Made by a program: the position numbers and the translations under genes. This document shows, one piece after another, positions 15,018 to 54,200 of a stretch of DNA of 64,000 nucleotides. Origin of the DNA: Romanomermis culicivorax. Taxonomy: Eukaryota > Nematoda > Enoplea > Mermithida > Mermithidae. The stretch covers positions 372,001 to 436,000 of the forward strand of contig CAWUHX010000100.1 in NCBI GenBank assembly GCA_963922205.1. Reading direction: 5' to 3'. The notes beneath the pieces were generated by a model. It was not told where the DNA came from. It saw nothing but the letters and a program-made list of their open reading frames with translations, and did no database searches. How positions within the stretch are numbered: the first letter of the stretch is position 1; each line of letters begins with the position of its first letter.

Positions 15018-16908
15018 CAGCGTTTTTTTTTGTGCACGGACATTTGTGCCAATTGGCACAAGAGGCCAAAAAAATTTGTGCCAATGGCACAAAAAAAAAT
15101 TTTCCACTAGAAACATATACTGAAAACTGTGGAAAGATTTTTGGCCAAAAGTTTGATAAAAATATAAATTAAGGCTAAGTTTAACCGCATTAATTTTTTG
15201 TAAAAATCGTGCCCTGCCCAGCCTTACCTATTTTTCAGCTAATCATGTCAGTGAGATAAGAAAAAACTGTGCAGGGAAATAGTTCGCGGCGATTCAAAAA
15301 GAAATGAAATGCCGAGAAAATTAGGGCTCTAGAATTGATGATCAAATTGATTCAATTTTTGACTACGAATATCTATATAATATTTATTAACAATGTAAAT
15401 ACTAGAGGAAATAACGTGTAAAATTTTGTGGATTTTCGGTCCGAACCACTGTTTTTTTTTTTCCACGAACTTTTTTCCACAAATGTGGAAAGGGGTCAAA
15501 TTTTTTTTCCACATGTGGAAAAAATTTTTTTTCGTCTTAAAATCCGTTTTTGGCTTAAAAATGCTCACAGACGCTTTATCGCACTGTTTTTGAGCTTTTT
15601 CAAGCCTTCCGGTGTTTTTAGAGAAGTTAATTCATTAAAATTGGAGAAAAATTGAAATGTTCGACTTAAAAGCCTAATCTACAAGCGTTGTTGAACAAGT
15701 TTTGTAGCAAACTATCCAAGAGCATAATTGACTTGAATTACACAAGAAATCAATGGTCAAGTCCTCTCTGATGACAAGTGAAAGCCCAAAAAAGATGGTA
15801 CTTTCCGGCGCGTAGCGCCGGAAAATTTTTTGGGTATATTGACATTCTAGGATGCTGGAAAATCATTTTTCCGAACATTTATTTCAAGAATTAGATTCCA
15901 ATTTGGTGTTCAAGAGTCGTAATTTCTAGAATTTTACTTGAAAAATTTTAAAATCTGTAATTTATTTGTAAACTCTCATGAACTTGGTCGAAAATATACG
16001 AGTAAGAAGAATATAAATTTCCGAAAGATATTTCCAAGAAGCTTTTGAATTGATTTTACGTTAGCAAAGAAATAATCGCATCATAAATCATAGAGACTTG
16101 ACGTGTATTCATCTTTCTCAAAAGGAAAAAATGCGAATCTTCATTAAATATTATGATAAAATGTTGAAGATAACCAATTAAAACATGAGATACTACGTTT
16201 AAGATGATGAAAACTATTATAGATTAAGTGATAAATGAAGGTAGACATGATAAAAGCCGCGCCTGAACTACTTAATGAATAATGATGATTATTAAAGTTA
16301 TTACCGGCGCGAAGCGCCGGAAAATTTTGAGATTATGACCTTCTAAAATGCACCAAAATGCATCTTTTCAATATGAAAACCCCAAATTTTTCTTCCACAT
16401 TTGTGGAAAGACCTCAAAAATTTTTTCCACATTCCAGATTTTTTTTCCACATTATAGTGCAAATGTGGAAAAAAAAACAGTGGTCCGAACATTGCACCAA
16501 TTATATCGATTTTTCTGTTTGAATTAATCAAACACAGAAAGTAAGAATTTCAGTTTTAAATCCGAATCTGACTGAATGAACAGATAATAATTCAGAATTT
16601 GTTTTCTTTCATCAGTCATTGACAGCGTATGAAGTTTGCTGCAACAATACTGGTACACTGTTCGAGGAGAAATCGTTCGCGTTCGGATGGAATATTACGA
16701 GTAGGAAATATTATGATATTCATTGATTCGGCGCGGAGCGCCGAAAAATTTTTGCATTTTCAGTCCTTGAAACGTCTAAAAATCAAGGAAATTTAATGTT
16801 TGATCAGCCAAAAATTTTGTGCCAATTGGCACAAACGCTCAAAATTTTTTGTGCCATTCCAAATTTTTTTGTGCCAAAAACCATGTTTTGGCACAAAAAA
16901 AAACACTG
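15018..16908 (+). mobile_element. GTGCC-type hAT-like MITE, complete copy carrying a nested MITE
   Basis: Left end CAGCGTTTTTTTTTGTGC and right end GGCACAAAAAAAAACACTG are inverted. A perfect 8-bp duplication ATTTGAAT flanks it at 15010-15017 and 16909-16916. Subterminal palindrome GTGCCAATTGGCAC occurs near both ends (15048, 16820). Without the nested element (15447-16482) the body is about 847 bp. It includes the hairpin CGGCGCGGAGCGCCG at 16729 and a TTCGCGTTCGG segment shared with copies at 24220, 25305 and 27144. It has no ORF, so it must be mobilised in trans. Confidence 0.9.
15447..16482 (+). mobile_element. CCAC-type hAT-like MITE, complete, nested inside 15018-16908
   Basis: Left end CACTGTTTTTTTTTTCCAC and right end GTGGAAAAAAAAACAGTG are inverted, with a perfect 8-bp duplication GTCCGAAC at 15439-15446 and 16483-16490. 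Unoccupied versions of the same host sequence at about 24860, 26066 and 28115 confirm the insertion. Subterminal palindromes are CCACAAATGTGG, CCACATGTGG and CCACATTTGTGG. The interior has the hairpin ACCGGCGCGAAGCGCCGG at 16302. A second hairpin version lies at 15806. Confidence 0.92.
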
Positions 16909-16936
16909 ATTTGAATAATTTAGCTTCAACTTGGTT

Positions 16937-17297
16937 TCCGCGCCTCCATTTGCCGTCCATTGATCATTTCAGGTGATAAACTGCCAAAAATATGTGTTTT
17001 GCTCATTTTTGGACTTCACGCCTAAAAAATATTCTGCCCTTTAAATTTTCTCAGCATCCATTTCTTTTCGAGTCGTCGTACGTGAACTATTTTCCTGCAC
17101 AGTTTTTTCTCATCTCCCTGACATGGTTAGCTGAAAAATAGGTAGGAGGGCACGATTTTTACAAAAAATTAATGCGTTAAAAACGTTAAATTTTCATCAT
17201 ACTTTTTGGCCTAAAACTTTTCCGCAGTTTTCAGTATGTTTCTAGTAGAAAAGTGCCAATTGGCACAAATGTTCGTGTGCACAAAATAGAACGCTGC
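16937..17297 (-). mobile_element. GTGCC-type hAT-like MITE, minus fragment
   Basis: The terminus GCACAAAATAGAACGCTG (17279-17296) and the palindrome GTGCCAATTGGCAC (17252) are followed leftwards by the family's AAACTTTTCCGCAGTTTTCA and CTGACATGGTTAGCTGAAAA. The other end is missing. Confidence 0.7.
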
Positions 17298-17403
17298 TCG
17301 TTCTATCCGCACGGATACAGTAATTTCGCAAATTACTTTTTTTAATCAGTGTACGTGCATAACTTGCTTACGCTTCGACAAAATCGGCTGTGACTTCGAC
17401 TAA

Positions 17404-17631
17404 AGGGTCATTTATACTTGCCTTTTTCGACGGAACGGAACGAATCGCCAACAGCTTGAAACGTCCACCCTGGAAGTCCACTTTAGGTCGGAAAGGATAA
17501 GTGAAATTTTGTGGAAAGCGACTGACGGTAACCTCCAACCAAACCGAACGGAACGAAAATTTCTTTTTCGTTCAGTTAGCTTGTGTCAATTGTAATACGT
17601 TCCATCGGAAGAAGCAAGTATAAAGGATCCT
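17404..17631. mobile_element. 228-bp MITE with AGGGTCATTTATACTTGC ends
   Basis: Inverted ends (AGGGTCATTTATACTTGC and GCAAGTATAAAGGATCCT) and a 3-bp TAA duplication suggest a PIF/Harbinger-type MITE. The body has GGAACGGAACG repeats. A second copy lies at 23611-23838. Confidence 0.65.
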
Positions 17632-20600
17632 TAATGGATAAGCTAAAACTTGGGCTTGTTCTTAGCATTCCTCCTAGTAGTTTGGTTGACCAAGCGGTGC
17701 TAGTCAATAGTCATTCGGTCTATTTTTAATTTTAGTGTCAGTCTACAAGGATCAATATTGAGGAAGGTATATCACTGCTGACAAGGAGCCAGAAAAGGAA
17801 AATAGATCGAGGCATGAAGATGAACATGAACCATCTCTGTCCTTACAGTACAACCGCCTACATAAATATCAAGTCTTGCGGCGTTTTCTTGCAATCCAAC
17901 TTGTCTGTCTCACATAATCATGACATGAGCTCTCATGAAAAGTGGTAGCCTATCCTAATCCGTAAGGCAACAATCAGTAGTTGAACAAGAAAACAGCAAT
18001 AAACAAACAAAAAAGAACGATTATTTCGAATTAAATTATTGTTTCGAGATTGTGAAATCGGTATTCTACTGCATTGTTGGCAGACCAGAGAGTAAAATAT
18101 TCCGTGGAAGAAATGTTTCGATTGTTGGAATGGTTGTATAGTGAAAAATGAAAAATAACCATGAAACGTGCTTGAGAGAATTAAAGTTTGTCAGTAAACA
18201 AGGGTGGATGGACTGATTATTCCTGAAAAGGAAAAAACGAAATTATAGTCAAAGGAAAAATATTTCAAGCAGTGAGACTAGATCAACATTCTATGTTCTC
18301 CAACTATAGTTCCGAAAGTAGCTATCATCTGAATCTGAAACTGGACCAGTCCTGCAAGTTTTTGTACAACAATGCACGATGATTTCTCCAGAACTATTTT
18401 GCCACGCTAATGTTTCTCCTAACAGACTGCAGCTAGCAGTAAGATTCAGTACAAAAAGCAGCTGAATTACTCCCAGAACAATGTTTTATCGGAATGACAC
18501 CGTATGTTTTTGGCGACGAAATTCAAGTTTTCTCTTGATTTTTCAAAAGGCTTTTATTGTCGAATCCGTATAACGTCGGATTTATCACGATGGAACTGAT
18601 TGCCGACCTGCCTCAGAAATGGTTTTGGAATGGGCTGTCGGTGCGTTATGCCGACCATAGTTCTAAGAAATATTTCCAAATATAGTGAAGTATGTAAATT
18701 AACCAGAAATACGTAAAACAATAACAGGAAATTTATGATTAAATGCGTATTCCAAAACTTCCATAAAGCCCTATTCAGAAGTAAAAAATCCTAGGATTTT
18801 TGTTGCCAACAGTCGGCCACGGTCGGCTGATTGCACTTTTGAATTGGGCATAACTTTTCATCCAGAGTGCACTGCGTTCGCATATTTAGTTTAAAAATGA
18901 ACCTTTTTGACTGCCACAATGAATTAGAAGTCGTTTTCCAATTTGAACCTTCGATACACAGTAAGCTGAATACAGTAAAAATTTGATCATTCTTACTTAA
19001 ATTTTTTTTCTCGTTGTGCATTTCCTAATCCGAAAACTCTCTTTATTTTACCGCAGTATATCTTCTTGCTTTCCCTTTAATACTGATGTGGCTCACGATA
19101 TTCGATTTTAACGAAGTCCCGTTTTGGTACTAATTCATCGAACGACGTCTGCAATAAATGTACTGTATTAAGAAATTCACTCAATCAAGTTGAGCAGTGT
19201 CCATTGACCGAATTCGGTCAATGCTTTTTCAACTGCTGACAGGGTCCGGGCAGGAGAAGATGCCATGGCAATGGCAGTCTGATATTGACCGCTTCATCAA
19301 GTTCAAAATACAGTAAAACGATGAATTTCGTAAATTTACTGAAAAGACGACAAAACCTGCTTGTCACTATAAAGATATGCACACTATATTCTAACAAGCT
19401 CAGTATTCTATGTGTGCAATTCAAAGACAATTCTGTCGGGAAAAAGATTTGTGACGTTGGGAATTTGACTTAATTATTAGTATCAATCAGTCTGATTGGT
19501 TTGCTGAACTTTGTAACACCTAAATCACTCAAATAGACTTAATCGTTGATGCTAAAATAAGTCAGAATTTGATTCGAGACGCCATTTCAGGTACCGTTGC
19601 GTTTTGACCACCTGTCTCTACAGCCAACAAATTTTTCTCGTTCATAGCATGGACTATCCTTGAGTGACAGTAACGTTTCGTCCGCTATGTTTTTTTGTGT
19701 CGCCATAAGTCTTGAAGCATTCTAATCAATTTGGCAGAGTTCTAAATATTTTTGAAAAAAATTGTCAGTCTGACCCCAAAATTCCTAACACGTGGAAATT
19801 TTTTTCGAATAATAAATTTTCCATTGGAATTACATGATTTTTCAAAGAAAAGTCAACGTTATGTCTTCACTTTTTTCCGAAATAAATGGGTTTTGTGTTT
19901 ATTACAGTATTATGTTTCAAAAACCGGTCAGTTCTTGTGTAAACGTAACAGATTTTTCAATGCAAATCCTGTAAAAATAACAAGTTTGCCTCGTAGAACT
20001 CATAATCTTTTGGATAAAAATCACGATGTAAGTCGCTGCTTAAACGAACATGAGACACTATGAAATGTTCTCCTTCTGGACATCTTTCTTAACGTTTCTT
20101 TTCTGTGATAAGTTTTTTAGCCATGTAAATGAACGAAATGACTCGTCAACCGGATAAACTTTGACCTTTATGCAAGTAAGCCTCATGCAATATCCAAATT
20201 GTCACTAAACGTATTAAAGTATCTTAACTGAAACTGATCGTTGTTGGTATCTCGCTAAAATAATAACAATTAATTGGCTGAACCGGGACAGCGGCTAAGA
20301 TGCAATGGTGTCTGAATTGGCATGCTGGCTGAATCGGCAAACAATCAAAATACATATTGTACAGTACACCTGCTAGGATAAAAAAATTCGATCTTACAAT
20401 AACAGAAGACCATTTTCCATATTTTGAATACCCACTAAAATCCAAATCAGAATTATTTTATCATCATCAACTAAGTCCATTTGATTGATTTATAGCGAAT
20501 TTTTTATAAAATGCTTGTAAAGTGAAATTTGACAAATATTGCACTGTCGTTCAAGTCGTTTACACAAAACTTTGACTACGAAATTTTTATTCAAAAAATA

Positions 20601-20640
20601 GTTAAAGGTTGGTTGAACACGCTCACAGGTTTTCGGCGCT
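17632..20640. other. About 3 kb with no recognised gene or repeat
   Basis: The sequence is AT-rich, with no family-type reading frame and no copy of the repeats found elsewhere in the window. A 309-nt open frame at 19752-20063 has no recognisable motif. A GACCGAATTCGGTC palindrome at 19206 is isolated. The stretch ends at a weak remnant of the GC hairpin (TTTCGGCGCTACG, 20632). Confidence 0.5.
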
Positions 20641-20699
20641 ACGTGACATAGGGTTGAGCTGGAAATCTTGAAAGTCTAGAATACTACTTGCATTCCACT

Positions 20700-23611
20700 C
20701 TCATCACGAATCCATCCAGGACATTTTGATCCCTGACGTTCATACAAAAATGAGAATTGTTCCTGATGTAAATCATATGGAAGTCCAAATACATCTTCTG
20801 AAAAAATACAGTATTAGATATTCTTGTATTTTGCTTGGTGATTTTAACTTGCAACAACTTCTCACATGTACATATGCAAAAATGTCTGCTAGTATCGAGG
20901 GTGATGCATTATATTCTTGCTGATACTGGGTTTGATTCATACACAAATAATCCCACCAGGAATGGGAATTTTCTCGATCTCATATTCTGTGTAATGCAAA
21001 ATCATTAGTATCAAATGTTCAGAGTGCCCCATCTTTTTCTACTAGTGACCATGACTCTGTTACTTTTTTTATTCATGATAAATTGCCCCATGAAACTAAT
21101 AATTTTTTTATCCCAACTTTCGTAAGGCTGACTATATTATACTGATATAATATATGTTTCCTTGTCAATCTTTTTTACTAGCTAAAGTGAATTAGTTTTT
21201 AGTTTTTTCCTCTTATTCTAAGATAAATGATTTTTATGTCAACTTTCTATCTGTCTTGCAGCAAAAGGAGTAGAACTTTATGACACCTTGAAGAAATTTT
21301 GTAGAAAGAAAAAACTTCTATTTCTAAAGAAATTAGAAAAAGAGAAGCTAATTTTGGTGGGAAAAATATAAACTCTTCCGACATCAAATTATAAAAGAGA
21401 TGAATCTTGTTAGAGCTGGAAACTTACGCCAATCTTACCAGTATGCGAATAGTAAACTTTCTGCATCCACGGCTATTTCCTGATCTTAAATATAGAGACA
21501 TAATTGCCATAAATAATATTGATAAAGGACTTGCTGAATGACTATTTTTAATTTATTTTCACCAAATCTGAAAATATTTCTGAGCCTAACCTTACTTCTG
21601 ATAAAAAAAATCTGAACTCAAATTCTCTTGTGGTTTTAATTTCCTCACTGTCCTTTCAGTGCTCAAAAATCTCAAACCAACGTTATCACTGGGTCCCAAC
21701 AATTTATGTGCATTCTTTTTAGGAAACTTCACCTCATTCTCTCTGAACCATTGTCAACTATCTTTGAAGTCTCTTATAGGACTGGAGAAATACACTATTT
21801 CTGGTGTGAGGCAATTATTGTTCAAATTTTCAAAAAAGGTGATTCGACATTGGTTGAAAATTCCAACCAATTTCTTTGTGCTGTATTTCATGCAAGGTCA
21901 TGGAATCGATTATTATTGAATATGATGAAGTGATTGAAAATCTGCATTTTCTGTCGTCTGAACAGTATGGTTTTCGGAAATCTATGTCTTGTGCTCTGCA
22001 GTTGTTGCATTGTATAAATATATGGTCACGTTCACTTGATAAGAAGTATCACATGCGGACGAATTTTGTCGAACGTCACATGATTCAAATCACAACTTTT
22101 CGTTATGTTTTTCGTTACGTTTTGTGTTACAGTAATTTACATCAATTTTATGTTTCGTTTCTTATAATTTTTACATGCAATTTATGTGTGTACTTTTTAT
22201 GTTTCGTTTCTGTTTCATTTGTGCACAGTTTATTTCCGTTTCGATTTAATATTTTCTATCGCACACATAGACTACGGTATGTACCCGCTAGTCAAGAATT
22301 TCCGTTAGAGATAAGCTCTCCGAGCCCATCGCTGTAATTGGAGCACAACATGCACCTCTTATCGGTAAAAACCAGTGATGTTTCGCAACATGAAATGACT
22401 AGTTTGAAATTCTTACTAGTTGACGTTCCTATGTTAAGCATGGAGAGTGAAAACTCGCCCCAATGCTTAACGTTGTGAACTGGAAAATGTCTATGTGACC
22501 ATAGGCATTCTGCAGCGATTTCCGCTGCAGAAGTTAGCTTGGGGGAGTGTTAACTCCGCCCAAGGCATACTGTAGTTTATGGAGCCCTTTAAAAGGGCAT
22601 GTTTGGTTAGTTTTTCACTCATTTTTGGGCCTAATTGGTTGTTGCATTTTTAGCCTGGGTCTTGCGTTTGCCATTCGTCGTTATTATTATATTTCTATAT
22701 TGTCAACTGCATTAGCTGCTCCTCAAATAAAATTTGCATATTCTCGCCTCCAGTCTTCTTTACGTGGCCTGCTACAGTATCCCAACCGTTGGAGTTCACC
22801 ACCCGTCACCATTGATTGAGAACCCCCATCACCCTCCCCGAGGAAATGCTTGATATCGCCCCTGCCGAACCGCAGCCGCATTACCACTTACGCCAAATCA
22901 CTCTGGATTCCCGTACCCGCTCACCGTCGTCCGTAGGATCCACGCTTTGACCCCAGAACCCGTCGCCCAGCGCCGAGTACTTTGAGAAGAGGATTTAGTG
23001 AGTCTTCTCAAGGGTTATTATTGTTGAGGGTATATTTGTGGGAGTCTCCCCTAAGCTAGTTTCCCTTGGAAGTACCCTCACTTAAGAAAGCCCTCAGACC
23101 CTTAAAGTCAGGGCCAATAAGGGGATTTAGGTTAACAATCGGGTCCCCTACAGTACGCCATTCTGCGAATGGCACCGTCCTTCATTCCCAGTGAATGAGG
23201 ACTATTGATTGGCACCCCTGACCCAGCCGCATTGTCCATTGTTCTACAGCATAACCCAAGGACAAGGCCGAGGTGCACCATAGGTTTACCTGTGGTAGTA
23301 CCAGCTGGGTTAGGTTCCCAAACTGAATATATAACCGGAGCCACCCCACGGGGTCACAGCATGTCACCTACAGTGTCATGGCCATATTTCCTATGGGATA
23401 TGGTATGGGTTTTCCTATCAATGTGACTGATCACCAATCTACTTAATGTGACATGGCTCCCAATTTCAGTTAATGTGACAGAAGGTACCAATGGAGGTTA
23501 TATATATTGACCCTTGTGAAGCTTTTGACACAGTACCTCATGACATTCTCATTCAGAAGTTGATGAAGATCGGTATCCCCAGAATCTGTTTCAATTGGAT
23601 TTCTTCTTTCT
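20700..23611 (+). pseudogene. LINE copy, endonuclease and reverse transcriptase, broken by an LTR insertion
   Basis: Fragments in order are: endonuclease LLGDFN (20830), NNPTRN and a TSDHDSVTFF-like segment (21040-21075); RT LKNLKPTLSLGPNNLCAF (21660), EPLSTIFEVSYRTGEIHYFW, IIVQIFKKGDS (21810), CKVMESII, LSSEQYGFRKSMSCALQLL (21950). Then comes a 1434-bp insertion, and then MEVIYIDPCEAFDTVPHDIL (23491) to WISSF. Many frameshifts and stops are present. The copy is truncated at 23611 by a MITE. It is closely related to the minus-strand copy at 35400-37400, which lacks the insertion. Confidence 0.85.
22047..23480. mobile_element. Probable solo LTR (1434 bp) inside the LINE
   Basis: It begins TATCACATGCGG and ends TAATGTGACA, so the ends are inverted with TG..CA geometry after one change. 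It is flanked by GAAG (22043-22046 and 23481-23484), a 4-5 bp duplication. The homologous LINE at about 36200 reads straight through the site, proving an insertion. The interior has a possible TATA-like CCTTTAAAAGGG (22585), no gag/pol coding and GC-rich segments near 22850-22990. This fits a solo Gypsy-type LTR. An unrelated TIR element is possible. Confidence 0.7.
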
Positions 23612-23838
23612 TGCCTTTTTGGCGGAACGGAACAGAACAGAATACAATCACTTCGACGTTATCGAACCAAAACGAAATTTTCGTCCCGTTCCGTTCGGTT
23701 GGAGGTTATCGTCGGTCGTTTTCCAAAACATTGCACTTATCCTCTGCGATCAAAAGTTGATTTTCAGGCTGAACCTTTCAAGCTGTTGTCGATCAGTTCC
23801 GTTCCGATCCGTCGAAAAAGGCAAGTATAAATGACCCT
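23611..23838. mobile_element. MITE with GGAACGGAAC repeats, second copy
   Basis: The right end GCAAGTATAAATGACCCT matches the left end of the element at 17404 in inverted sense. The left end is reduced to CTTGCCTTTTT. Internal GGAACGGAACAGAACAG and CCGTTCCGTTCGGTTGGAGG segments are shared. It truncates the LINE. Confidence 0.65.
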
Positions 23839-24219
23839 TTAGAGTTAACCCGTAACGTCCTTTATATACGGCGTAGTAAAAATATATAGTCTCAGTAAAT
23901 GCAGTGTATCTCATTCAGTTCGCAATTTGAAATTGTGTTGTTTTTATTTATCCAACTTGCATGGTTTAGCGTTTAAATGAAAACTGGCAATTGTGTTTAG
24001 TGTACTATAGTAAGCGCAGTGTTGCCAGCGACTGTTTCCGCCCGCCATTTTCGCGGTTTTCAGTCCCCTGCCCCTCTGGCGGTTTTTGCGGCGGTTTGAC
24101 TATTTGGCGGTTTTGCCGTGGTTTTTGGTCTTTTGCCGTGGTTTTGGCGGTTTTCAATTTTTTGCTTACCACATGAACGCAAGATCAGGGTTGGCGGCAG
24201 CGTATTTTTGTGCACGGAC

Positions 24220-25279
24220 CAGCGTTCTTTTTTTGTGCACGGACATTTGTGCCAATTGGCACAAGAGGACAAAAAAATTTTTGCCAATGGCACAAAATTT
24301 TCTTTTCACTAGAGGCATACTGAAAACTGCTGAAAAGTTTTAGGCCAAAAGTTTGATAAAAAGTTATTGTTTAACGCATTAATTTTTTGTAAAAATCGTG
24401 CCCAACCTATTTTTCAGCTAACCACATACCTGTACTTGGGGTGGGGGTTGGGGGGGGGCCCCCCAATTTGGCCAACCCAGTACCCAAAATCATTTTCCCC
24501 CCAGTTGGGAAAAAATTAAAAAAATTTGCCAAAAAGTGTATGTTTTTTGGCCTTTTTTGGAAAAAATTTCGACTTTTTCCTACCCCCCCCCCCAAATTTC
24601 GGATTTACCCCCCCCCCCAACTGGTCGGAGGTCTTACAGGTATGGCTAACCATGTCAGTGAGAAGAGAAAAAACTGTGCAACAAAATAGTTCACGGAATC
24701 CCTAAAAGAAATGGAATGCTGAGACAATTTAAATAGCTCTAGAATTGTTCAGAAAGTTCAAATTGATTCAATTTTCGACTACGAAAGAATATCTATGTTA
24801 TGTGTATTCAACAACCGTGTAAAGACTACAGAAAATAAAGTCGAAAATCGTGTGGATTTTCGATCGAAGCATTGTGCCATTATCAACGATATCGATTTTT
24901 CTATTTGAATCAATCAAACACAAAAAGTAACAATTTCAGTTTTAAATCCGAATCTGACTGAATGAAGAGAGAATATTCAGAATTTCTTTTCACTCATCAG
25001 TCGTGAAAGCCTATAAAGTTTGCTGCACGATACTAATACACCGTTCAAAGAAAAATCGTTCGCGTTCGGGTTACGAATAGGAAATATTATATTCATTGAT
25101 TCGGCGCGAAGCGCCGAAAAATTTTTGCATTTTCAGCTCCTAAAACGTCTAAAAATCAAGGAAATTTAATGTTTGACCAGCCAAAAAATTTGTGCCAATT
25201 GGCACAAACGCTCAAAATTTTTTGTGCCATTCCAATTTTTTTTGTGTCAAAAACCATGTTTTGGCACAAAAAAACACTG
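24220..25279 (+). mobile_element. GTGCC-type hAT-like MITE, inner copy
   Basis: Ends CAGCGTTCTTTTTTTGTGC and GGCACAAAAAAACACTG, with flanks GCACGGAC (24212-24219) and GGACGGAC (25280-25287), an 8-bp duplication with one mismatch. The hairpin CGGCGCGAAGCGCCG is at 25103. It carries a CATACCTG-family MITE at 24425-24644 and provides the empty site for the nested element at 15447. Confidence 0.88.
24425..24644. mobile_element. CATACCTG-family G-tract MITE, copy c (220 bp)
   Basis: Ends CATACCTGTACTTGGGG and CTTACAGGTATG, with a perfect 8-bp duplication GCTAACCA at 24417-24424 and 24645-24652. The same host sequence without the insert (TTTTTCAGCTAATCATGTCA) is at about 15233. Confidence 0.92.
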
Positions 25280-27848: not shown

Positions 27849-27853
27849 CATAT

Positions 27854-37400: not shown

Positions 37401-37429
37401 ATATGGCAGACATTTCTTCATATTTACAC

Positions 37430-37960: not shown

Positions 37961-37969
37961 CCAACCCTG

Positions 37970-42800: not shown

Positions 42801-45800
42801 GTGGTGAAAGTACGTACACCACCCCCCTCCGCAAAAAAGTCGAGAGCAAAAAAAAAGGTCACGGCATGGCGCGCGGCATATGTCAAGTACTAACCTTACA
42901 ATTTACGATTTTACCCCTACCTAAATTTTCGACCTTGGGGATCTCTGCTATTTAGTTTGCCTAAATTGACTTCAAATGTTCAATTGCAGCTTTAGTAAAA
43001 TTTTCTAACTGTTGATGTTTGAAGCAGAGGACAGGCTACTCTGTAGAGTCAATGTAATTAGAACATACCTGTAATTGGACGGGATGTTGGGGGCAGGGGA
43101 CCTCCACAACTCGGTCGGATCCAGTACGCAAATGCTCGGATTCCACTCCTCCAGTCGTTAATTTGGGCAAACAATAGCATTTTATCCCTCTCCTCTCAGG
43201 ATTTTAGTAAATGTGGGTACCCCCACCCCACGAATCGTTAGTTTACCCCCCCCACCTAGTTGACCGGTAAAAAAGGTCATATTTTTTGGCGCTTCGCGAG
43301 AAATTTTCAACATTTTTTACGTCGAATTTCGGTTTTCACACCACCTCTAACCCTCTCTCCCAGATGAGCCGCATCGGCTCAAGAGACGTTGATCCTACTA
43401 GCGCCACGGAGCTATCACATGTAATACAATATGTTTAATAAAAATTTTTTCAGGAAAATGTCGACAATGCTCCCGAGTTCCCAGAAGTATTGGAACGCGT
43501 CGAAAAATGGTTGATTGATCACGACCTCCAGACTCATAAATATGGATATGCATTTGTTACCGACGGGTAATACTTTCTCAAGTTATACATAGCCGAAATA
43601 TTGGTACTTTACCGTAAACAACGTCAATCAATGTGGAGCTCATTTTTCGCTAAGTTTCTGACTTTCTGGCAAATAATACATTGTTTATCGCCATCCTTGG
43701 GCTTTCTATACATTGTTCATCGCCATCCTTGGGCTTTCTAGCTTTTCGAGGAAATCTAATATTGTCGCTGCTCCAATAAAAGGTTCTATTTCCACTTTTC
43801 ATGAAAATGAAGTTGGACCCATTTTAAGGTCTTGATCAAGACCTTAAAATGGGTAACCTAATTTGCATTTGTACCTAATTGTACCTAATTTGCATTTGAC
43901 AAAAGTTTCTCAGCTAACTGTTATATTGCTTCATTAAGAAATTTAGAATAAGAGAATCGAAAGCCGACTTGTCGTACACTATCGAAACATTGGATGCGTT
44001 TGTCTTTAAAAGATCAAAAGTGAATATAAAACTTTTTGTCGGAGCAGCAACGATATGCAACTCTTGTATATTTTCCGTAGAAGCGATTATTTTATAATTT
44101 GTAAGATGTTCATTTCAAGGTAAATCCTAGCATTTCCAGCTTGTTTAAATAATGACATCTAGGTATGATAGGCAAATAATCAGATAATTGAGTTGAGTAT
44201 TGTGCTAAATTGAAAATCTCATTTGTTGAGAATATCAGGTTGATAAGACTCTGGTTCGTTTTTCGAAAAAGTTTTTACGTCCTTTCAGACCTTGGGATTT
44301 CGGTCGTTTTTTCCAAGCGCAATTACAAAATTTACAAAAGTCGATACCTCATCATTTCCGTTATTGGATAAATATACGTCGGCTGTTTTGTCAGCATTTT
44401 AATTTGAAAAAAACCAATTTGAAACAAATGCTAGGCCTGTTGGACATGCAGTTCAAAGGTCGGGAACATTGTGGCTTGGACGACGCGCGAAACGTGGCCC
44501 GCGTGGCATCTGCTTTAATTGAGAAGGGATTAGAATTTAGAATCAATGAGATGATGCTGAGGCGAAATCGACTGAAAATTCGAGCGGCGAAGAGAGAAAG
44601 AAAAAATGCTGTTAAAGAACGAAGTTCAAGTAATGCATTTTTCAACTAAATCTGGCTAATCCAACTTGGACCCGGTTTTAAAACTTCGATGTCCGTTAAT
44701 AATGCATTCAAAAGGGATAGAACAATGTCTGGATCCGCTACTCTGTATGTTCAGACCTTCTTGTGATATTTTTGTGGCCCGCAGATTGGCGACTTCGCTG
44801 AAATCAGCATTCTCCGGTGAATTCTCTCCAAAAACTAAGGGGATGGGGTGATCACCCCCTCGCGTCGTTCTACGTTTATGTATGCCTGCTGTCAGATTAT
44901 CACGGACGAATTCGAATGCGGATCCGGACCTGCTGCTATTGTTAAAGTTTGACACACGCTCAGAAATATGGCAATTCCAGTTTATTGTTTCACATTGTTC
45001 TATTTTTTCAAAAATCTCTAAGCAACAGCGGTCAAATTATATCCGGCGAAGAAGCATTTTTCATTGCTCCTAAAATTTATTCAAGTTTCTTGTTCGGTAT
45101 TTGAGGTTGATCAAGAGGATATTTGCCATATTTGTTAAGAAAAGAGCACAAATCGAAATATTCCTTCGTTTCAGGGTACTCACATTTCAATGACGACGTG
45201 TAACTCATGCTAACCGTACATGCACATAAGGGGTAGGAGGTAAACCCCAGACATGCACGGCAAGATTTTTTTAGGAGAGTCCTTGGACTTTTTATCGTGG
45301 GGGATAGGGGGGTAAGCAAGCCAAAAAAAGTTCGGCAAGCCTGTTTTTCATACAAAATATGCACAAAAATCATCAAAAAAGCTGTCTTGAAAAAAGTTTG
45401 TTTGACGATTTTTTGGGCCAGGGGGATGGCCAGGGTTTCAGGCAGGGTTTTTTTGGTTTTTTTATGACAGGCCATCTGGCTCCCAAGGTCAAAATTTTCT
45501 CAAATTAGATCAGGCATTATTCAAATCAATCATAAGGGTTTTTTTTCGGACAAGCCTGGTTGATCTGTAACTTGGCGAAAAATTTGGTTGCACAGATTAA
45601 TTTTTAGTTGCTCACTCTAAAATTGATGCATTCGCTTAATTTCATCAGAAAAATGATTAAAGGTTACTTCCCTTGTATTTCATTCACTTCGCGTCAGTTC
45701 CTGACTTTTGAAATTGAATTTCTTAAGTCTGGCTAAAGTAACTTGTCCGGTGCCTAGCGCCGAAAAATTTTGATTTCGAGGTCTCTAAAATGTCGGAAAA

Positions 45801-47230
45801 TGCATTTTTTCAGCACTTTCTACTGCAACTCCGATGACCGACCTTCTCACCATTTGATTGGCGGAAGAGGTCAAACATTTTAATTCCATTTTGGATCTTA
45901 TATATCTGGAGAAAGTAATTTACCAATCACAATTATTTATCAAAAGCGATTGTTTTCACATGATCTATAACAAAAAGGCGCGATAGGTATTATACTTCGG
46001 ACTTGAATATCTCCGGCGCTTAGCACTGAAAGAAAATTTTAGTTTATGATTTTCTATAGCGTTGGAAAATGAATGCTTCTAATATCATTTTCCTGCATGA
46101 AGAGTCTATTTTTTCAGTGAATTCCATGTGTTTTCAGTGGAGCAAACTAAAATTCAAAAATTAGGCAAGCAAAGATGAATCTGAATGGCTTCTTCAGATA
46201 GCAAGAACCTCTGCCATTTTCCCATGCTGATGATATTTTAATCATTTTCCAAATGCAAAAAGTTATGTTCGCCATAGCCGAAAATTCTAAAGCGCCGCGA
46301 AACGATTTTGCTAAAATAATCTAGAAAAATCTTGATTTTTGTCAAATACGTGGAAAAAACAATAAAAGGTCAAGCATTCATCCATAACATGCTGGTTTTT
46401 GAAAGATACAAGTATAACCTAGGATGACATTTCCTAACTGCACAACAGAAATGATACCAAGAATCACAAATGAAATGAAATGCGGCGCGAAGCGCCCGAA
46501 AATTTTCGGTATTTTTCATTTCAAAATGCATAAAAATGCATCTCCGCATAGGAAGCCCTATAGCCTAGTCAAAAAGGGTAGGTAGGCTCTCATTTTTACA
46601 AGCCGATTTGGCTTGTGCCCCTGAACTTTTAGGAGCCCATCAAAATTTTTAGGAGCCATGGCTCCAAATTGACCCAAAAAAAATCCTGGTCTCATGTAAG
46701 GGGGTTTACCCCCTACCCTCTATGTGCATGTATGGTAAACCCTCCTACGTGAGACCATCATGAGGGATCCGGACCCGAGCAAAATAATTTTCTTGATCCA
46801 GACGTGACTTAGTCAGAATATTGTATCCGTCCCATCCCTAGTATTCAGCTCGTTTGTGGAAATACAATTTGTAAAAATTCTAATTTTTTCCAAATGCGCT
46901 TCGTATTCATCTATTTTCTGGGGTGATGATGAGTTGATATTGTGAAAACAGCCATTGTCTTGTCAGAAACCTAAGCTAAAAAAAAAGTTCTTACAACTCA
47001 TTTCGTACCTTAAAGATTCCCTTCTTTTTTCAGACATCTCCATCACCGAAGAAGATAGCGCACCGACAGCAGACGAGAATCCTAAACACGGCGGTCAGTT
47101 CTTTTTGCCGTACAAAGTGTTGGGAGTGACGAAAGCCGAATTCTTAATGAACGTTTACGAACAGTGTTTAACGTGCGACGAAGAAGAAAAAGAATACAAT
47201 AACGTTCAAGATGATGATTCTGACGTTTAA
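39861..47230 (+). CDS. ERI1: 3'-5' exoribonuclease 1 (ERI1), 7 exons, 364 aa
   Basis: ERI1 is a DEDDh exonuclease that trims histone mRNA 3' ends and 5.8S rRNA and degrades siRNAs. Exons: 39861-39926, 40018-40097, 40279-40492, 40554-40637, 43454-43566, 44289-44629, 47034-47230. Every junction is GT-AG and in phase. A SAP RNA-binding domain (SLKKEELREYLRNAGL) lies at about residues 31-65. The nuclease domain follows, with VVDFECT (D88, E90), VTDGPWDF (D185) and GREHCGLDDARN (H246, D251), so all five catalytic residues are present. After LEFRINE a Lys/Arg-rich stretch leads to a last exon with an acidic tail (CDEEEKEYNNVQDDDSDV). This tail is not part of the family core. Total length is close to human ERI1 (349 aa). 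Intron 4 and intron 6 hold transposons. OMA1 follows 533 bp downstream on the same strand. Confidence 0.96.
40984..42720 (+). repeat. Dispersed repeat, copy 2, split by a hAT-like element (ERI1 intron 4)
   Basis: It is collinear with 29280-29960, interrupted at GTGCGCAT by the element at 41432-42317. The part after the insert extends the conserved reading ILPCYELRHARSVDADGEWY. A 26-bp internal tandem duplication (GGATGGGGAGTGGTACCTGG) occurs near 42400-42450. Confidence 0.75.
41432..42317. mobile_element. hAT-type element with TAGGGATGAGATG ends (886 bp)
   Basis: Left TAGGGATGAGATGAATCC and right CGTCCCATCTCTA are inverted. A perfect 8-bp duplication GTGCGCAT flanks it at 41424-41431 and 42318-42325. 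The unoccupied site is at 29738. Subterminal GGATTCGGATTCGG repeats lie at both ends, and there is no transposase. Related ends occur at 46830 (CCGTCCCATCCCTA) and 49698 (TAGGGATGGGCATG). Confidence 0.9.
43072..43432. mobile_element. Diverged CATAC-family MITE in ERI1 intron 4
   Basis: It starts CATACCTGTAATTGGACGGG and ends near CGGAGCTATCACATGTAATA, so its two ends resemble the CATACCTG and CATACATGTAA families respectively. It includes TTGGCGCTTCGCGAG, a damaged hairpin. It lies about 20 bp before exon 5 of ERI1, close to the branch point region. Confidence 0.55.
44660..45204. other. ERI1 intron 6, first part, no recognised feature
   Basis: AT-rich intron sequence with a few short open frames and none family-like. 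Confidence 0.4.
45205..45500. repeat. ACATGCACATA G/C-tract repeat in ERI1 intron 6
   Basis: GTACATGCACATAAGGGGTA and GGTAAACCCC (45218-45250) are followed by GGACTTTTTATCG, a G-run and GTTTTTCATACAAAATATGC, matching units at 5960-6520 in mixed order. A short related end (CCCTCTATGTGCATGTATGG) is at 46715. Confidence 0.5.
45745..46560. repeat. Three diverged GC-hairpin modules in ERI1 intron 6
   Basis: Hairpins CCGGTGCCTAGCGCCG (45751), CCGGCGCTTAGCACTG (46012) and GCGGCGCGAAGCGCCC (46482) are each followed by GAAAATTTT or a variant, and a TCTAAAATG-type box. The spacing to the TAAAATG box is as in the intact MITEs. Terminal repeats are not recognisable. Confidence 0.6.
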
Positions 47231-47351
47231 ATATTAATGGTGACATTTTTTCGCGTATTTTCGTTCGAAGCGATGCCTTTCAAAACGACGTACATACGAG
47301 TAAAAGTGAAGTAATCTTTCTATTATCTTTCCGTTTTTTCATTTCTCGACG

Positions 47352-47357
47352 AATAAA
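47352..47357 (+). terminator. Poly(A) signal for ERI1
   Basis: AATAAA lies 122 nt after the ERI1 stop codon in an AT-rich 3' UTR with no other candidate closer. It fits cleavage well before OMA1. Confidence 0.6.
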
Positions 47358-47500
47358 AAATTTAACACTTGACTTTTACGTGATTGCAAATACTTAATAT
47401 CGATGATCAAGATTTGTTCGATGATAGAGTAAGGTTAGAATGAAGACATTGTTTTCTGAGCACTAAAATTTGCGTAATGGTCGAAAAAACGACTTCGTTG

Positions 47501-47673
47501 CAGGGTTTTTCCCTCGCACCGGTCGTTCCGCATCTTGCGGAAATCGGCCAGAAAAATTTCTGCACCACCATTTAAAACCACTAAAAACATCAAAAATTTT
47601 CCGTTCCATGCGAAAAACTCCAAAAATTTTCCGCACGACTCCAAAATAATCCGCACTGTGCGGAAAAACCCTG
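47501..47673. mobile_element. 173-bp hAT-type MITE (CAGGGTTTTTCC ends) between ERI1 and OMA1
   Basis: Left CAGGGTTTTTCCCTCGCACC and right CACTGTGCGGAAAAACCCTG are inverted. Flanks CTTCGTTG (47493-47500) and CTTCGTAG (47674-47681) are an 8-bp duplication with one mismatch. The palindrome CCGCACTGTGCGG sits at the right end. It lies 90 bp before the OMA1 start codon, inside the likely promoter or leader intron. Confidence 0.85.
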
Positions 47674-47731
47674 CTTCGTAGAGAAAATGAAATTTCACAT
47701 CGTGCATAGAAATGTGATCGATAACCTTGTG

Positions 47732-47762
47732 CTGTTTTTCAGGGTTGACTCTACGCTTGGAT
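47732..47762 (+). promoter_or_regulatory. 3' splice site and short leader before the OMA1 start codon
   Basis: GCTGTTTTTCAG ends at 47742, 20 nt before the ATG at 47763. The frame is open across the site, so an upstream coding exon cannot be excluded, but the ATG begins a good mitochondrial presequence. Confidence 0.5.
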
Positions 47763-50700
47763 ATGCGACAATTATTGCGATTCAGTCGATATTCATGCCA
47801 TCAGTCGAGGTTATCAATAAGAGCAACAAGTCCGATCATAGGAACTAACTTTCGACGACCGTATTTCGATCAAAAACCTGGCTGTATTTTAAATCAATCA
47901 AAACGAAATTTTCGTTTATCCTATCCATATAGAGCCATAAATCCGCTGTTATGGGCATTACTACGACCATTGACACAACTTGGCGCCATTTTGTTCGGGA
48001 GGTATGTGGTCCGATGTATTAGTTTGCAAGCATCTATAAACTATTTTTTCCGAGTATTTGAGAATTGGAACGCAAAAGGATGTTCAGGCAAAGAAAAAAT
48101 AACCTGAATCGCGAACGTCTTTTCTCACAAATTAACCGTAGCTGATTTGCAATAACTGGAGGAAAAAAATATGCACCATCTCGCGGATTTGTCGTCTGCA
48201 AAAGTATTTCTTCACTTTCCGAATCTCACTTTTGAAATAAATGGATTATAAATAATATTTTCATGGTTTGCTGTTAAGTAGAACCAGGCCTGTAGGCAGG
48301 GGGTTGGGGGGCTATGGCACCCCTGAACTGTTTCAGGTGTTAAAAAAGGCAGAGGTGGGACCTTTGGTTTTTGTTTTCTTCAGGAAAAAGTCAAATCAGA
48401 AATGCCAATTTTACAGTAAATTAAGTAAAAAAAATGTGTGCCTGGTCTACATTTAGACAGTCAAAAAAATATTTTATGAATACAGACTTTAGCCAAGTCC
48501 AAATGTAGACTGGTCTTTAGACTTTAGCTCTGTCTATAGACTTTGGACACGAGCCTCTTTTATGAATTATGGCCCCTGGGCTAGTTGTCATAGCGCTCCC
48601 TCCTCAATTGTATGTATGGTCGGAAGTAGCCGAAATTCGTGTTTATTCTTTGCGCATTTCAAAAATTCAGAAAAACAAAGAATTCCATAAATCACATTCA
48701 TATCATTTATTACCTTTTGTTTTCTTTTAGAGCATTTCGCCGATGGTGGCTCGCCTTACCAGCCGAAAAGCGGAAGGAACATTTCAAGAACTTTGTCAAG
48801 AATAAAGGAACGCTTCTGTGTAAGGTGTTGGCATACGATGTTGTTTTTTGCTTTTCGTCTGATTTAAAACTTTGGTTCAATTTTTCAATAGTCAGAATCT
48901 CATAGTTGGTAAAAGTCCTTCATTCTTTTATTCCCCCTGATCAGAAAATAGTTTCACTCTGCCAGTTTCTTGAATCATCTGGCTGATTGACTAAAACTTC
49001 CAGAATATTTATGCGTTGCAATGCTATGCTTTGTATCCTGGTCCTCTATGAAGCTGCTCGTGGATATTTATTTGTGGACCATGATGTTGTTCCAAATTTG
49101 TTTAAAAATTTTTTGTGTAGTCATTGAAAAGCCACACAATTTTTAGAACATTATTCGAGAGTTTTCTAGAAAGAACTGCAATTAGAACTGTAGATTTCTA
49201 AGTGCGCAAAATCCACTTGAGAAATGATTAATTTGGGAAGCGTAGTGAAAGACTCCGTTATATTGAATGAAGATTCCAAATTTTATTCAAGCAATCACTT
49301 GGAACTTTATCCTTATGTTCTAGCTTCTAGTGGAGAATTACCAATTTCCTAAACACTAGAGATGTATCGGGAACTCGGGCCCAAATTAGACCCGAAATTA
49401 CCCGATTTGCTGGACCCGGGCCCGATATTCTTAAAATTTTAGACCCGAACCCGATATTTTCAGAATTTTGGACCCGATACATCTTTAGTTCTTATTATAT
49501 GAAGATGTACACAAAAGTAAAAGTATGTCGCACAGATCAGCGTCTTGAAAAATATAATGGACCCGGACCCGAAATTACCCAATTATCTTGCTGGACCCGG
49601 ATCCGATATTCTTGAAATTTCGGACCCGGACCCGATATTTTCAAAATTACGTACCTGATACATCTATTCACATAAAATTCCTTATATATAAGTCGTAGGG
49701 ATGGGCATGATTCACTTTTTTGACTGGATCCTAAAAAAGCTCCATCGGATCCGGATCCAGATCCACAAAACTGCAATCGTCGGGTCTTGATCCAGAAGGA
49801 CGGATCTGACCGGATCCGAATCATGTATATAATATAACAGGTGTCCCGAAAGTTACTTCTGGACTTCATTTTTAAATTGATATTCAACAATCCAATGTAC
49901 ATCTGTCTACACTATTGCAGTGTGTAACTACAGTACTTGGAGGAATAAGGCAAATGCGATGTATCACTTGCTTCATTGCACTTGGCCGCCATCTAGACTT
50001 ATACACTGGCATAGTCGATGACAGACTGAACTGTATACTTTACTGCATAATTCTGGTTCAAAATCATGTAAAGCTTCTGAAATATACCATCGTAGTTTGT
50101 CGAGGTTCCCAGGTTGTTGACCATATACTTTATCTTTGATGAAGCCCCAGAGGAAAAAATCAGGTGTAAGATTGCAAGAGCATGGTGGCCATTCAACTGC
50201 ACCACGCCTACCTAACCAACGATTGGGAAACTTTTCATTTAGCCAGCGCTTAACGGGTTCAGCGTAATGAGCAGGGGCTCCATCATGCATGAACCAAAGG
50301 GCCTGGGCTTCCGGTCGGTTTGATAAGTCTGGCCAAAATTTGTTGTTGAGCATGGCCAAATAAGTTTCTTTGTTGACGGTGGCGTCGAAAAAATATGGGC
50401 CAATAATGCCTTGGGACCAAATCAGAGCCCAAATGCATACCGAAGGAGATGTAACTGGAGTTCCAATTGTTGCTTTGGATTCTCTGCAGCCCAAAAAATA
50501 CAATTATGCCTGTTAATGTAGCCGTTCAAGTGAAATGTGGATTCATCCGACCATTAAACGGAATCTTCTAACTCTAGTTGGTTGTCAAGTTTTTGAAGCC
50601 AGTTTTCGCAAAACTCTAGCTGCCTGTCGTAATCATCTTCTAACAAGCCATGAATGAGGGTAGGATGAAAGGCCTCAATATGATGTTCCTTAAAAATCCG

Positions 50701-51168
50701 TTGAATTGAAGTCCGGGTAATTTCCAATTGGTTTGAAGCTCATCTAAGTGAGGTGCTAGGGTTATCCATGAACTTCGTTAAAACATTATCTACATTTTCT
50801 TCTGAATGAGCGCTTCAAGGTCGTCCACATCGAGGCAAGTCAGCTACACTACCTATCTCATCAAAACGTTTGTTTAAATTAAGAATAGCATGGGCAGTTG
50901 GTTGTTCGGAGAATGAATGTCGACGCCAATCCCAGACGACTTGTTCTGCATTTTTCGAAATTGAGTATAATCGTACACATTTTACATAATCTTCTAAATC
51001 CAACTGCTGGAACGCCATTTAATTATATTAAAACTTTAAGTCAATTAGTTACCTGGAAAATGATATAAATATTAGGTCATAATAATTACGTTGAACAAAG
51101 TTATCAACATTCAAAAGCCCGAAGTAACTTTAGGGACACTCTCAAACCAATAACAGCGCCTAACAGCG

Positions 51169-51204
<36 letters not shown>

Positions 51205-54200
51205 TCATATGAATGAATAATCGTCTGTATATGTTTAATAGTGCCAATTCGTATTTTTTAAGTTCAATAGTTATTATGATAATTATTGAAATTTGAAGCA
51301 AATTTAAACAAATGCTCAGAATCTTTAAACTAGAATTTTTTGCAAGCCTCAATCTGCACCGTGCAGAAAGGACCGGAAAACTTCTGCACTGAATAATTTT
51401 TTCCGGTTCCTAATGAATATAAATAAATATAAATTTTACTACTTTCAGTTTGGATTATCAGTCGGGAAATAATCGCATTGAATACGCGAAGGAAGAAGTA
51501 TGAGAAAAATCAATGAATTCATGTTCGTCAACGAGTTTTACGACTTTTAATATAAGATGAGACATGGCAAGTTCATCAAACTAATAAGGGATAAATCAGG
51601 AGTGAAACTACACCTTTTTCGCCGTGTTTCAGCTTAATTACCGGCGCGAGCCGAAAAAATTTTAGATTTTGACTTTCTAAATCGCATACTAAATGCATTT
51701 GTTCATCAAAAAATTTTCCGCCTGGCCAAAAGAACGCGCTGTGCGGAAAAAATCTGCTTAAGCGCAGTATTTATATTGTATAATGCTACAGTCAGACGAG
51801 TGAAGTAAAGTAGGAATTGTGCCTAGAAAATATTGGATTTTGACCTGCTAAAAATCAGAAAATTTACCTTTTTATTGATTCTCTCAGCAGAAGAAATACC
51901 GAAAACTTTGACTGCTTCTCGATCAAAAATTTCTGTTGTTTGCAAAAAATGCTCAGAAATTTTTCTGCATGGCCAAAAGAACAGTGCAATGTGCGTAAAA
52001 AAGATTGCTTTGAACAATATTATTCCATTCAGAAAGTAAAATTACATCTGTAAAGTCAATAAAAAATCTAGACTTAAGATCTAAGCTGTTTTTTATCGAC
52101 AAAACTAATCGAAGTTCATATTCGCAGTCTCACCAGAAATCTTCTAAAGGATGATACAGTTGAAAAATTACTCTGTGTCAAGTATAATTTGATTACTGTT
52201 GGTTTGGAAATTTTATAAACGTCAATGTAAATCCAAGTGAATATAGTTTTCATTATGACCTATCTCAATCATCAACAGCGTCGATTCCGTATCCGAATCC
52301 AAAAAATTTGTTTCATCAGTTCCGCATAAGGATCAAGAAAATTTTTTCATCTGATCTGGATTCGAATCCAGAAAATTGCAATGATCGGATCCGGGTCTAG
52401 AAATTGGGGCGAATATCCTCGGATCTGAACAGCCGGCCTATCACTAGGGAGTGGCCAGCTGGAGTGTAGTGCTTTGAAGTTTGGCGTTTGAATTTTTTAT
52501 TTTGTAGATGGCGTCCTTATTTCTATGGGGCTGTTGTCGTTGTATTACTATTATCACATCGACAAGTGCTCTTTGACTGGTCGTAGACGTTTTATCACGA
52601 TTACAAGACACCAATTTGATACGATGTGTGACCTACAATCTAAACTAGTAAGGTTCAACTTGAAAAATGAAATCCATTTATTTTCAAATAAAACCTCTGC
52701 GGAGGAAAGGCTTATGATTCACGCGGATTCTTTTTTCAAATGTTGATATGTTGTTGGCCTATCTGTTGCGGTCAATTTGAGAACAAAAATAACCGCATGT
52801 GCGTACGTGATTTATTCTCTTCTAATGCATCTTTTTGCAATCCAACGGACCTGTGGTTGGAGGGGGGACCCTATACCCACCCTCCCCCCCCCCAGTTTGG
52901 AAAAAATTAAAAAAATTTGCAAAAAAGTATGTTTTTTTGGCCTTTTTTGTGAAAAATTTCGACTTTTTTCGACCCCCTCCCCCAGTGTTTTTTGCACTGT
53001 GCAAAACTTTTTCCGCTCGTGCAAAACTTTTTTTTCAGGTTTTTTGCGTCGTGCAAAAAAATATTTATCAATTGTGGAAAAAAATTTGGTGTTTTCGTAT
53101 AGAAAAGATACATTTTGGTGCATTTTAGTAGACCCAAATTTCAAAATTTTCTGGCGCTTCGCGCCGGTTATAACTTTAATAATCATTATTATCTATTTTC
53201 AAGCTCAGGCGCGACTTTTAGCATGTCTACCTTCACTTATCACTAATTTTTAATAGTTTTCATCGTCTTAAACGTATTATTTCCTGTCTAATTGGCGATC
53301 TTCAATTATCATTATATTTAATGAAGGAAGATCCCCATTTTTCCTTCATACATTTTTTGAGAAAGATCAACACATCAACTTGGTGCATTTTAGAAGGTAA
53401 TAATCTCAAAATTTTCCGGCGCTTGGCGCCAGTTATAACTTTAATAATCATTAGTATGTATTACGTAGCTCAGACGCGGCTTTCAGAATGTCTACCTTCA
53501 CCTATCATGTAATGTATAATTGTTTTCGTCATCCCAAACGTATTATTTCATGTTGTACAAAAAAAACCCTGTTCATAGTACAAAAAAATTTTTCGGCGTG
53601 CAAAATTTTTTTGGTGATTTTTTTGCACCGTGCAAAAGAGCTCGTGCAAAAAAACACTGCCCTCCCCCCAAATTTCGGATTTACGCCCCCCAACTGGTCG
53701 GAGGTCTTACAGGTATGCAATCCAAGTCTGATTTTGGAAAGAATGGACCCTTCATAGGAAAGATAGATCATTCGTGGAATAGTTCTGGGTAATATTATCC
53801 TCTTAAGAAAGAGTCCAGTGCATATAGGTCGCAGCTTTGTCCTTGAAATAGTGTTTTGTTAAAAAGTCTGACATGTTCATGAATAGAATTTTACTCTTGA
53901 GCAATCCTAATAAGTCCTTTAAAAATACTCTAAGAATTGGCGCTATTTCTAGAAAACTCGATAGAAAGCTGCTCCTCGAGAACGAGATTTTTGAAATTCG
54001 TCATGCAGTTTTTACTCAAATGTTTCCCGCTTTTATTTAATGTTTTTTTTTTTGGGGGGGGGTTATATTACGCTATTTAATTTGATTTATCTAATTTTAT
54101 TTTTTCACAGCTTTTGAAGCAATTGCAATCGTTCATTCTTCGCGATAACGACTTTCGAGTTTTGTTTATAAAACGAGTTGCTCGGCGGCTATTGTCTGCA

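Follow-up and report, generated by a model that had tools for sequence, protein, structure and literature searches.

A Shared Core Under Several Terminal Codes in hAT-like Miniature Elements of the Nematode Romanomermis culicivorax

Introduction

Families of miniature inverted-repeat transposable elements (MITEs) that share an interior under different ends have been described before, and the present account deals with such a set of hAT-like elements in a 64,000-nucleotide stretch of the genome of the mermithid nematode Romanomermis culicivorax (GenBank assembly GCA_963922205.1, contig CAWUHX010000100.1, positions 372,001 to 436,000 of the forward strand), referred to here as the window. In Acropora corals, the CMITEs comprise MITE families with different terminal repeats, a well-conserved shared interior and tandem arrays; a figure legend presents a new element, CMITE-IN, assembled by CMITE insertion, and the authors give the origin of the 75-bp interior as unknown (PMC2872659, in the parts consulted). 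The nematode elements resemble CMITEs in having a common interior under different ends. As far as the consulted text goes, CMITEs are piggyBac-type elements of about 100 bp with TTAA duplications, whereas here no such TTAA duplication is found; the duplications are 8 bp long, the core measures about 850 bp and, for one end change, the parents were recovered.

A second point of comparison is Galileo of Drosophila mojavensis, where chimeric copies carry ends from different subfamilies and non-matching flanks, and some have interiors from another subfamily (PMC3573991, in the sections consulted). These chimeras resemble one element of the window, W13, in their ends of different origin and their flanks. 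Galileo, however, belongs to the P superfamily, with 7-bp duplications, long internally repeated terminal inverted repeats (TIRs) and, in the sections consulted, recombination between subfamilies; the nematode elements have 8-bp duplications and ends of about 80-100 bp, and their unlike codes were joined by nested insertion and deletion. The MER6 MITE, which captured the V domain of a short interspersed nuclear element (SINE), is likewise a MITE spreading a domain of another element (PMC6887750, consulted in part). It pairs a MITE derived from Mariner with a SINE portion, unlike the successive end changes found here.

Insertion of one DNA transposon into another is common; what differs here from nesting in general is that the outer ends founded a family carrying the inner core. 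No account of a recovered empty host together with layered ends was found among the titles and abstract openings of the open papers surveyed. As far as open papers show, shared interiors under different ends and chimeras were already known, and what is added is the recovered parents, an unreduced intermediate and layered ends. Judged by sequence comparison, the core of about 850 bp has very probably moved from one end code to another stepwise, by nesting and deletion, with fusion and in-place change of ends occurring besides.

Two Elements With Unlike Ends and One Core

The features of the two elements first recognized in the window are as follows.
15447-16482, plus strand: element A, a complete non-autonomous hAT-like element with CCAC-type ends; the core is A 100-925
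15439-15446 (left) and 16483-16490 (right), no strand: target-site duplication of A, GTCCGAAC
52983-53659, minus strand: element B, with GCAC-type ends, the core reversed and two tandem core units
53115-53287, minus strand: core unit 1 of B
53380-53553, minus strand: core unit 2 of B, 82% identical to unit 1
53069-53084, minus strand: CCAC-type end relic in B, adjoining the GCAC end; TTTTTTTCCACAATTG on the minus strand, aligning with A 945-957, with a matching junction in other B loci

The preliminary description had taken A and B for complete elements whose interiors match over about 180 bp, and this was borne out on each count. A is flanked by the perfect 8-bp duplication GTCCGAAC and B by the perfect 8-bp duplication CCCTCCCC, and each has many near-identical copies. 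The likeness is longer than first claimed: A aligns with reversed B over 313 bp at 81% (expectation value 5e-81), and the second tandem unit of B matches A over a further 178 bp at 85%. Chance was ruled out as its source, as 200 dinucleotide shuffles of B reached at most 30 bits against A and the real match scores 286. In B, the match extends into TTCCACAATTG, the counterpart of the innermost CCAC motif of A, after which the GCAC end takes over, and TTCCACAATTG is thus recognizable as a relic of the other end code, CCAC.

The genome surveyed comprises 359 Mb in 595 contigs, and copy counts are drawn from the 40 best-scoring candidates per search. All 40 scored candidates for A are 98-100% identical over the query from base 1 or 9 to 1036, a lower bound on copy number given 4892 first-look candidates. 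For B, 34 of 40 span the query from base 7 or before to base 672 or beyond at 92-100%; three of these (two on C165, one on C33) agree in score and length, which may mean a single insertion that was duplicated. With end positions searched within a few tens of bases, duplications with at most one mismatch were found for A at 7 of 8 loci and for B at 25 of 30 (32/38 together). When two loci of a longer form, B-long, are included, 34 of 40 loci have them, 30 perfect, two of the 34 representing one insertion. The hAT target preference is nTnnnnAn, and the duplications fit it, with T at position 2 in 20/34 and A at position 7 in 21/34. The termini are also hAT-like, starting with CA and finishing with TG (CACTG..CAGTG and CAGTG..CACTG).

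No open reading frame (ORF) of 120 or more amino acids with an ATG, GTG or TTG start lies within A, and the two ORFs touching B (52777-53253 and 52812-53186) cross the edge of the element. Together with two further families, H and F, these elements are 677-1115 bp long with TIRs and a high, homogeneous copy number, as is typical of MITEs; identity among scored copies is 98-100% for A, 92-100% for B, 93-100% for H and 81-100% for F. A and B are assigned to a clan of non-autonomous hAT-like elements marked by a terminal CASTG, a T-tract and, repeated below the end, a code that is particular to the family and often palindromic.

An End Change Recovered With Its Parents

The families that document one change of ends are represented by three loci elsewhere in the genome.
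L079 97-465: F0, a core-less host with CTGC-type ends, 369 bp, duplication CTGCAGAC
L072 6242-7232: H, the donor, with CCCC ends and the core; duplication with one mismatch
L096 111-1225: F, the reduced product, with CTGCAC ends

Each of the three is a family in its own right. F0 has 20 core-less matches of 327-418 bp, the query included, that span base 7 or before to base 360 or beyond; all 40 scored matches of H cover at least query bases 31-958 at 93-100%; and F has at least 19 full-length copies (among the 40 scored matches, 19 reach from base 9 or before to base 1101 or beyond, at 84-88% excluding the query). F is composed of F0 1-84, H 1-910 and F0 266-363. Bases 7-84 of F0 correspond to F 6-82, H base 1 falls at F base 83, directly after CTGTTAC in an exact insertion junction, and F0 266-363 restarts at F 1004. 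From this alignment it follows that H inserted after ..CTGTTAC and that the last 81 bp of H were lost together with F0 85-265.

The unreduced nest was found at C22, where the left junction has F0 up to CCTGTTAC followed by H base 1 (L099), and the right junction has H base 991 followed by ACTCTTAA and then by the F0 interior, 105-286 (L098). The right junction is repeated in L007, where the end of H is followed by ACTGTTAC. The end change of F is therefore readable in full from the aligned sequences, as an empty host, a donor, an unreduced composite and a reduced multi-copy product. Nesting is also seen directly for B in F at L010, with the duplication CATCGGAT.

Two observations on related sequences may be recorded. 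CTGC-ended elements at C183:195022-195761 and similar places carry other inserts at F0 162-176, whose overlapping pieces look like those of a further nested insertion. In L099 10-74 (C22), another CCCC-type end lies directly upstream beside GTAACAGG, the F0 site reversed, a nest within a nest.

A Nested in Element E

A itself lies within a host of another code, which the preliminary description had overlooked.
15018-16908, plus strand: element E hosting A, with CAGCG/CAGTG ends and the motifs GTGCCAATTGGCAC and GGCAC (GTGCC/GGCAC); 847 bp without A

E is bounded on both sides by the duplication ATTTGAAT, and a copy of E without A is found in L002 270-1134 at 81%. The arrangement can be read as the first step of an end change by nesting, caught in the window. 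E sequence lies within 20 bp of an end in 16 of 40 A copies and at both ends in six; 39 of these 40 copies are the same as in the query with A alone, and some E pieces are just 34-36 bp. The cover of E is 6.6% in the remaining window, 2.4% in the flanks of B and 1.9% at hAT loci, and about 3 of 40 would be expected beside A against the 16 observed (binomial P 1.6e-9 at 6.55% cover, 6e-7 at 10%). In C282, C367, C5 and C23, the E piece adjoining A starts at or beside the hairpin of E (query 1705-1715).

E and A are alike at this hairpin, over 25 bp at 92%. It had been considered that E and a further sequence, G, share nothing except the hairpin with A, which proved too strong, as a weak match of 145 bp to A exists in one copy of E (68%, expectation value 4e-5) and G has an 81-bp match at 75% away from its hairpin. 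E-type ends seeming to wrap the core of A in L034 were also rejected, since the end of E at that place is truncated and points inward, making it a neighbour.

Layered Ends in B-long

The longer relatives of B carry several end codes one inside the other.
L091-L094, about 1187 bp, and L071 723-1663, 941 bp: B-long, with GCAC ends

In all four long copies, which share one insertion site and so count as one lineage, the left side has a GCAC end in 1-81, a CCAC relic in 92-151 (79-84% to A 12-67), a CTGC end in 144-237 (78-85% to F0) and then the core. L091 also has a short leftover, TACTGTTTTTGTCGC, resembling a CCCC end, after the CTGC end. The CTGC layer is lost from the 941-bp form. The right junction is common to B and B-long, and B looks like a further reduced, internally doubled form of B-long. 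The insertion sites of B loci with a duplication differ from one another.

The B-long copies were set aside as proof of independent transposition by GCAC ends: all six flanked copies (L089, which holds the element of L071, L090 and L091-L094) share flank and duplication within a larger repeat, X. In L089, X spans 1085-3617 with one end near CAGGGTTCATACAAAG and contains the hairpin and AAGCC motifs; L089 and L090 are 97% alike across it.

The W13 Fusion

One element of the window, likewise absent from the preliminary description, joins two core-bearing elements.
13424-14593, plus strand: W13, with a CCAC-type left end, A-like to 14071, then an L095-like, AAGCC-type right side

W13 is what speaks for ends having been exchanged by ectopic recombination or gene conversion, as in Galileo, an unlikely account of the set as a whole. 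It is 91% identical to A up to 14071 and 95% identical to L095 from 14072, and informative sites divide 58:10 to the left and 4:40 to the right of the break (Fisher p 2.6e-16; 0/500 permutations) in an alignment that folded a repeated stretch into one. A target-site duplication was looked for in the flanks of W13 and none was found. The repeated stretch is A 540-641, 102 bp that occur twice at the join, and an aligned homologous exchange was given up on this ground; W13 is best read as end joining between the two elements. The left join of F, as an exact insertion junction, likewise speaks against recombination. An apparent switch from F to A near the hairpin in the core of B-long was rejected as not significant (p about 0.04; 51-79 of 500 permutations). 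L095 was considered as a possible complete element whose two ends differ; its duplication matches at 6/8 by eye.

Change of Ends in Place and the Core Tree

Not every difference between codes calls for nesting. A 9-985 aligns with H at 83%, and the alignment takes in the ends, so that those of CCAC and CCCC type match along their whole length. In seven gap-free motif copies aligned by eye, all differ at the variable position, six to the CCCC/GGGG form; in raw counts, 10 of 38 motif positions and 27 of 153 spacer positions are changed, no strong excess in the motifs. CCAC and CCCC ends can thus be regarded as homologous, having changed in place with the core. CCTC-type ends, 74.7% identical to the right end of A over 182 bp (L072 6058-6235), are probably homologous to both and changed in the same way.

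The core unit is found beside seven codes: CCAC, CCCC, CTGC, GCAC, AAGCC, GTAC and CCTC. A core tree was built from 32 hand-chosen units and 187 columns, with labels taken from reading the flanks, automatic labels being too coarse. The overlapping rows L001, L009, L089, L046 and L057 were left out of the hairpin-cluster, core-flank and junction surveys; L001, L009 and L089 were likewise dropped from a further comparison and from a list of tails. The seven end labels need 7 changes on the tree, against a minimum of 6 and a shuffled mean of 18.7, and the end thus mostly travels with the core, with swaps as rare founder events. GCAC, CCAC and CTGC are each split, and supported branches force one change apiece.

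These results bear on the view that all ends descend from a single ancestral end and diverged at the pace of the interiors, without swapping. The end-to-end alignment of A and H, the CCTC ends and the tree on which code follows core are as it would have them, and part of the gradual pattern that had been named at the outset as contrary evidence is present, in the CCAC, CCCC and CCTC ends and in the likeness of GCAC and CTGC. As an account of the whole it is nevertheless quite improbable, and for F it is refuted: it leaves unexplained the intact CCCC left end inside the CTGC ends of F, the relics inside GCAC ends, the core-less F0 and the unreduced nest at C22. The codes seem to form two groups, with gradual change within a group, and the sole change between groups with known parents is by nesting.

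Independent, repeated capture of the core from a genomic sequence, as in Pack-type elements, would accord with the same core standing beside at least seven codes. It is very improbable: in F and B-long the core has beside it remnants of ends that belong to other elements, and no single-copy source came to light, though no search for one was made. Nor could repeated capture be taken from the tree, where single origins are not rejected by the approximately unbiased (AU) test (p 0.345 for GCAC, 0.247 for CCAC).

The Hairpin Module and Other Core Sequences

A smaller shared part is a hairpin found across families, and the relevant features of the window are these.
16304-16328, plus strand: hairpin CCGGCGC-GAA-GCGCCGG followed by AAAATTTT
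9406, 10019, 10737, 10858, 12000, 13006, 14399, 15807, 16306, 16730, 25103, 26315, 31789, 46484, 53153 and 53418: positions of hairpins in the window
11506-11779, plus strand: A-like right-part fragment with CCAC-type motifs, 86% to A 748-1029
9355-9473, minus strand: core fragment without recognized ends, inside 9236-9480, 77% to A over 128 bp
51637-51705, plus strand: hairpin module (72 bp, 79% to A) of an old element, 51350-51770; no other part of it was found to be A-like

The window holds 16 perfect GGCGC-N3-GCGCC hairpins against none in 40 shuffled windows, mostly adjoining a stretch like AAAATTTT and set in many otherwise unlike repeats, a spread that the preliminary description had not remarked on. 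In 345 kb of sequence, much of it chosen for core copies, there are 109 hairpin instances in 18 sequence clusters, one of which (L015) looks unrelated. The numbers would suit a small mobile or convergent module in many families being all that is shared. This is scarcely credible for the set, and it is refuted for A, B, F and H, which share 180-860 bp beyond the hairpin; sharing of the hairpin alone had been named beforehand as a result that would refute the idea of one cargo under several ends. Of the 18 representatives, 9 have C-G and 6 have T-A as the outermost stem pair, a modest hint, in its paired variation, that the stem is kept; the search pattern itself imposed some of the inner five pairs, and its A-run may be the source of the A in the outer T-A pairs.

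Related interiors had also been claimed at 9236-9480 and, with CCGCAC-type ends, at 51350-51770. The first is present at 128 bp, a weaker likeness than claimed. The second has little beyond the hairpin module, and its ends are not clean, the best candidates having 7/12 TIR bases and one duplication mismatch; other copies of this element are old, at 64-83%. The hairpin largely accounts for the likeness among families otherwise sharing little, including 51350-51770 and E.

Search for a Transposase

A search of the genome for hAT dimer domains gave 150 scored matches, and the adjoining DNA was read for 48. The preliminary description had suggested seeking autonomous hAT elements with these terminal palindromes; among the 48 matches, none was recognized, nor any transposase owning the CASTG-T-tract ends. 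The hAT families with readable ends carry other ends, such as TAGGGATGGGC, TAGTGATGTGCC, CAGRGCCGTGCC and CAAGGCTGG. One with CAGRGCCGTGCC ends (L069 1854-5749 and L070 1683-5578) has perfect 8-bp duplications, copies 99% alike and an 844-amino-acid ORF in L069, and is probably an autonomous family that was recently active.

In another hAT family, ending CCAGCCTTG (L074, L079, L081, L086, L087 and L088), the outside neighbour is one of the present MITEs in four of six copies (L074, L081 and L086 beside E, L088 beside A), a hint at MITEs as insertion targets. Within the window, 49973-50503 holds a transposase remnant with a weak, below-cut-off match to Pfam DDE_3 (one of three window proteins searched), and an Rfam scan of the window found one tRNA and nothing at the elements.

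Proposed Route and Its Meaning

The steps of nesting and deletion may be set out as follows. An element would first insert into another of different code, as is seen for H in F0, A in E and B in F. A deletion would then remove the far end of the guest and the host interior, leaving the host ends to flank the guest core, as is seen in F and supposed for B. The composite would then amplify into a family that carries the outer ends, F and B being multi-copy, and repeated rounds would give layered ends as in B-long. End joining of two core-bearing elements could give fusions such as W13, and by an independent route a code may change in place along an end, as from CCAC to CCCC. We infer that a hAT transposase moves these elements and that every code has a transposase of its own to read it.

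Several points weigh against this route. The nest at C22 is known from its two ends, with a further insertion in the middle, the duplication at the F junctions is decayed (CCTGTTAC, ACTGTTAC, ACTCTTAA), and F flanks were read in a minority of copies, the F duplication at L010 having one mismatch. An empty GCAC host for B was not recovered, and its nesting and deletion are deduced from the relic. The right-side CCAC relic of B-long is degenerate (TTTTTCACACTTAA). The many 98-100% copies of B-long, where read, have spread with X and not by their own GCAC ends, and their number is thus uninformative on B-long's own mobility. Some "different" codes may be in-place descendants, as the left ends of the GCAC and CTGC types resemble each other (74-79% over 61-65 bp), and the tree, on a short unit, allows GCAC or CCAC a single clade.

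The idea of one cargo moved under several recognition codes, by nested copies or repeated capture, thus stands for the single core, the several codes and the nesting of F0 and H into F; in-place change occurs as well, swaps are rare and repeated capture was not shown. A dedicated modular end-swapping system was not shown either. A more speculative thought, which we hold to be rather doubtful, is that nesting regularly lets a non-autonomous core persist when a given transposase is lost, by moving to whichever end code is being served at the time, in which case layered relics would record the order of active codes and the hairpin shared by many of the families would be kept for a function of its own, as an insertion target or an aid to transposition.

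For the study of such families, it follows that annotation of repeats by interior alone or by ends alone will misgroup these elements. With older codes lying inside younger ones, the layers provide a tool for relative dating, and the origin of MITE families with different ends and common interiors can, for one change, be read step by step within a single genome.

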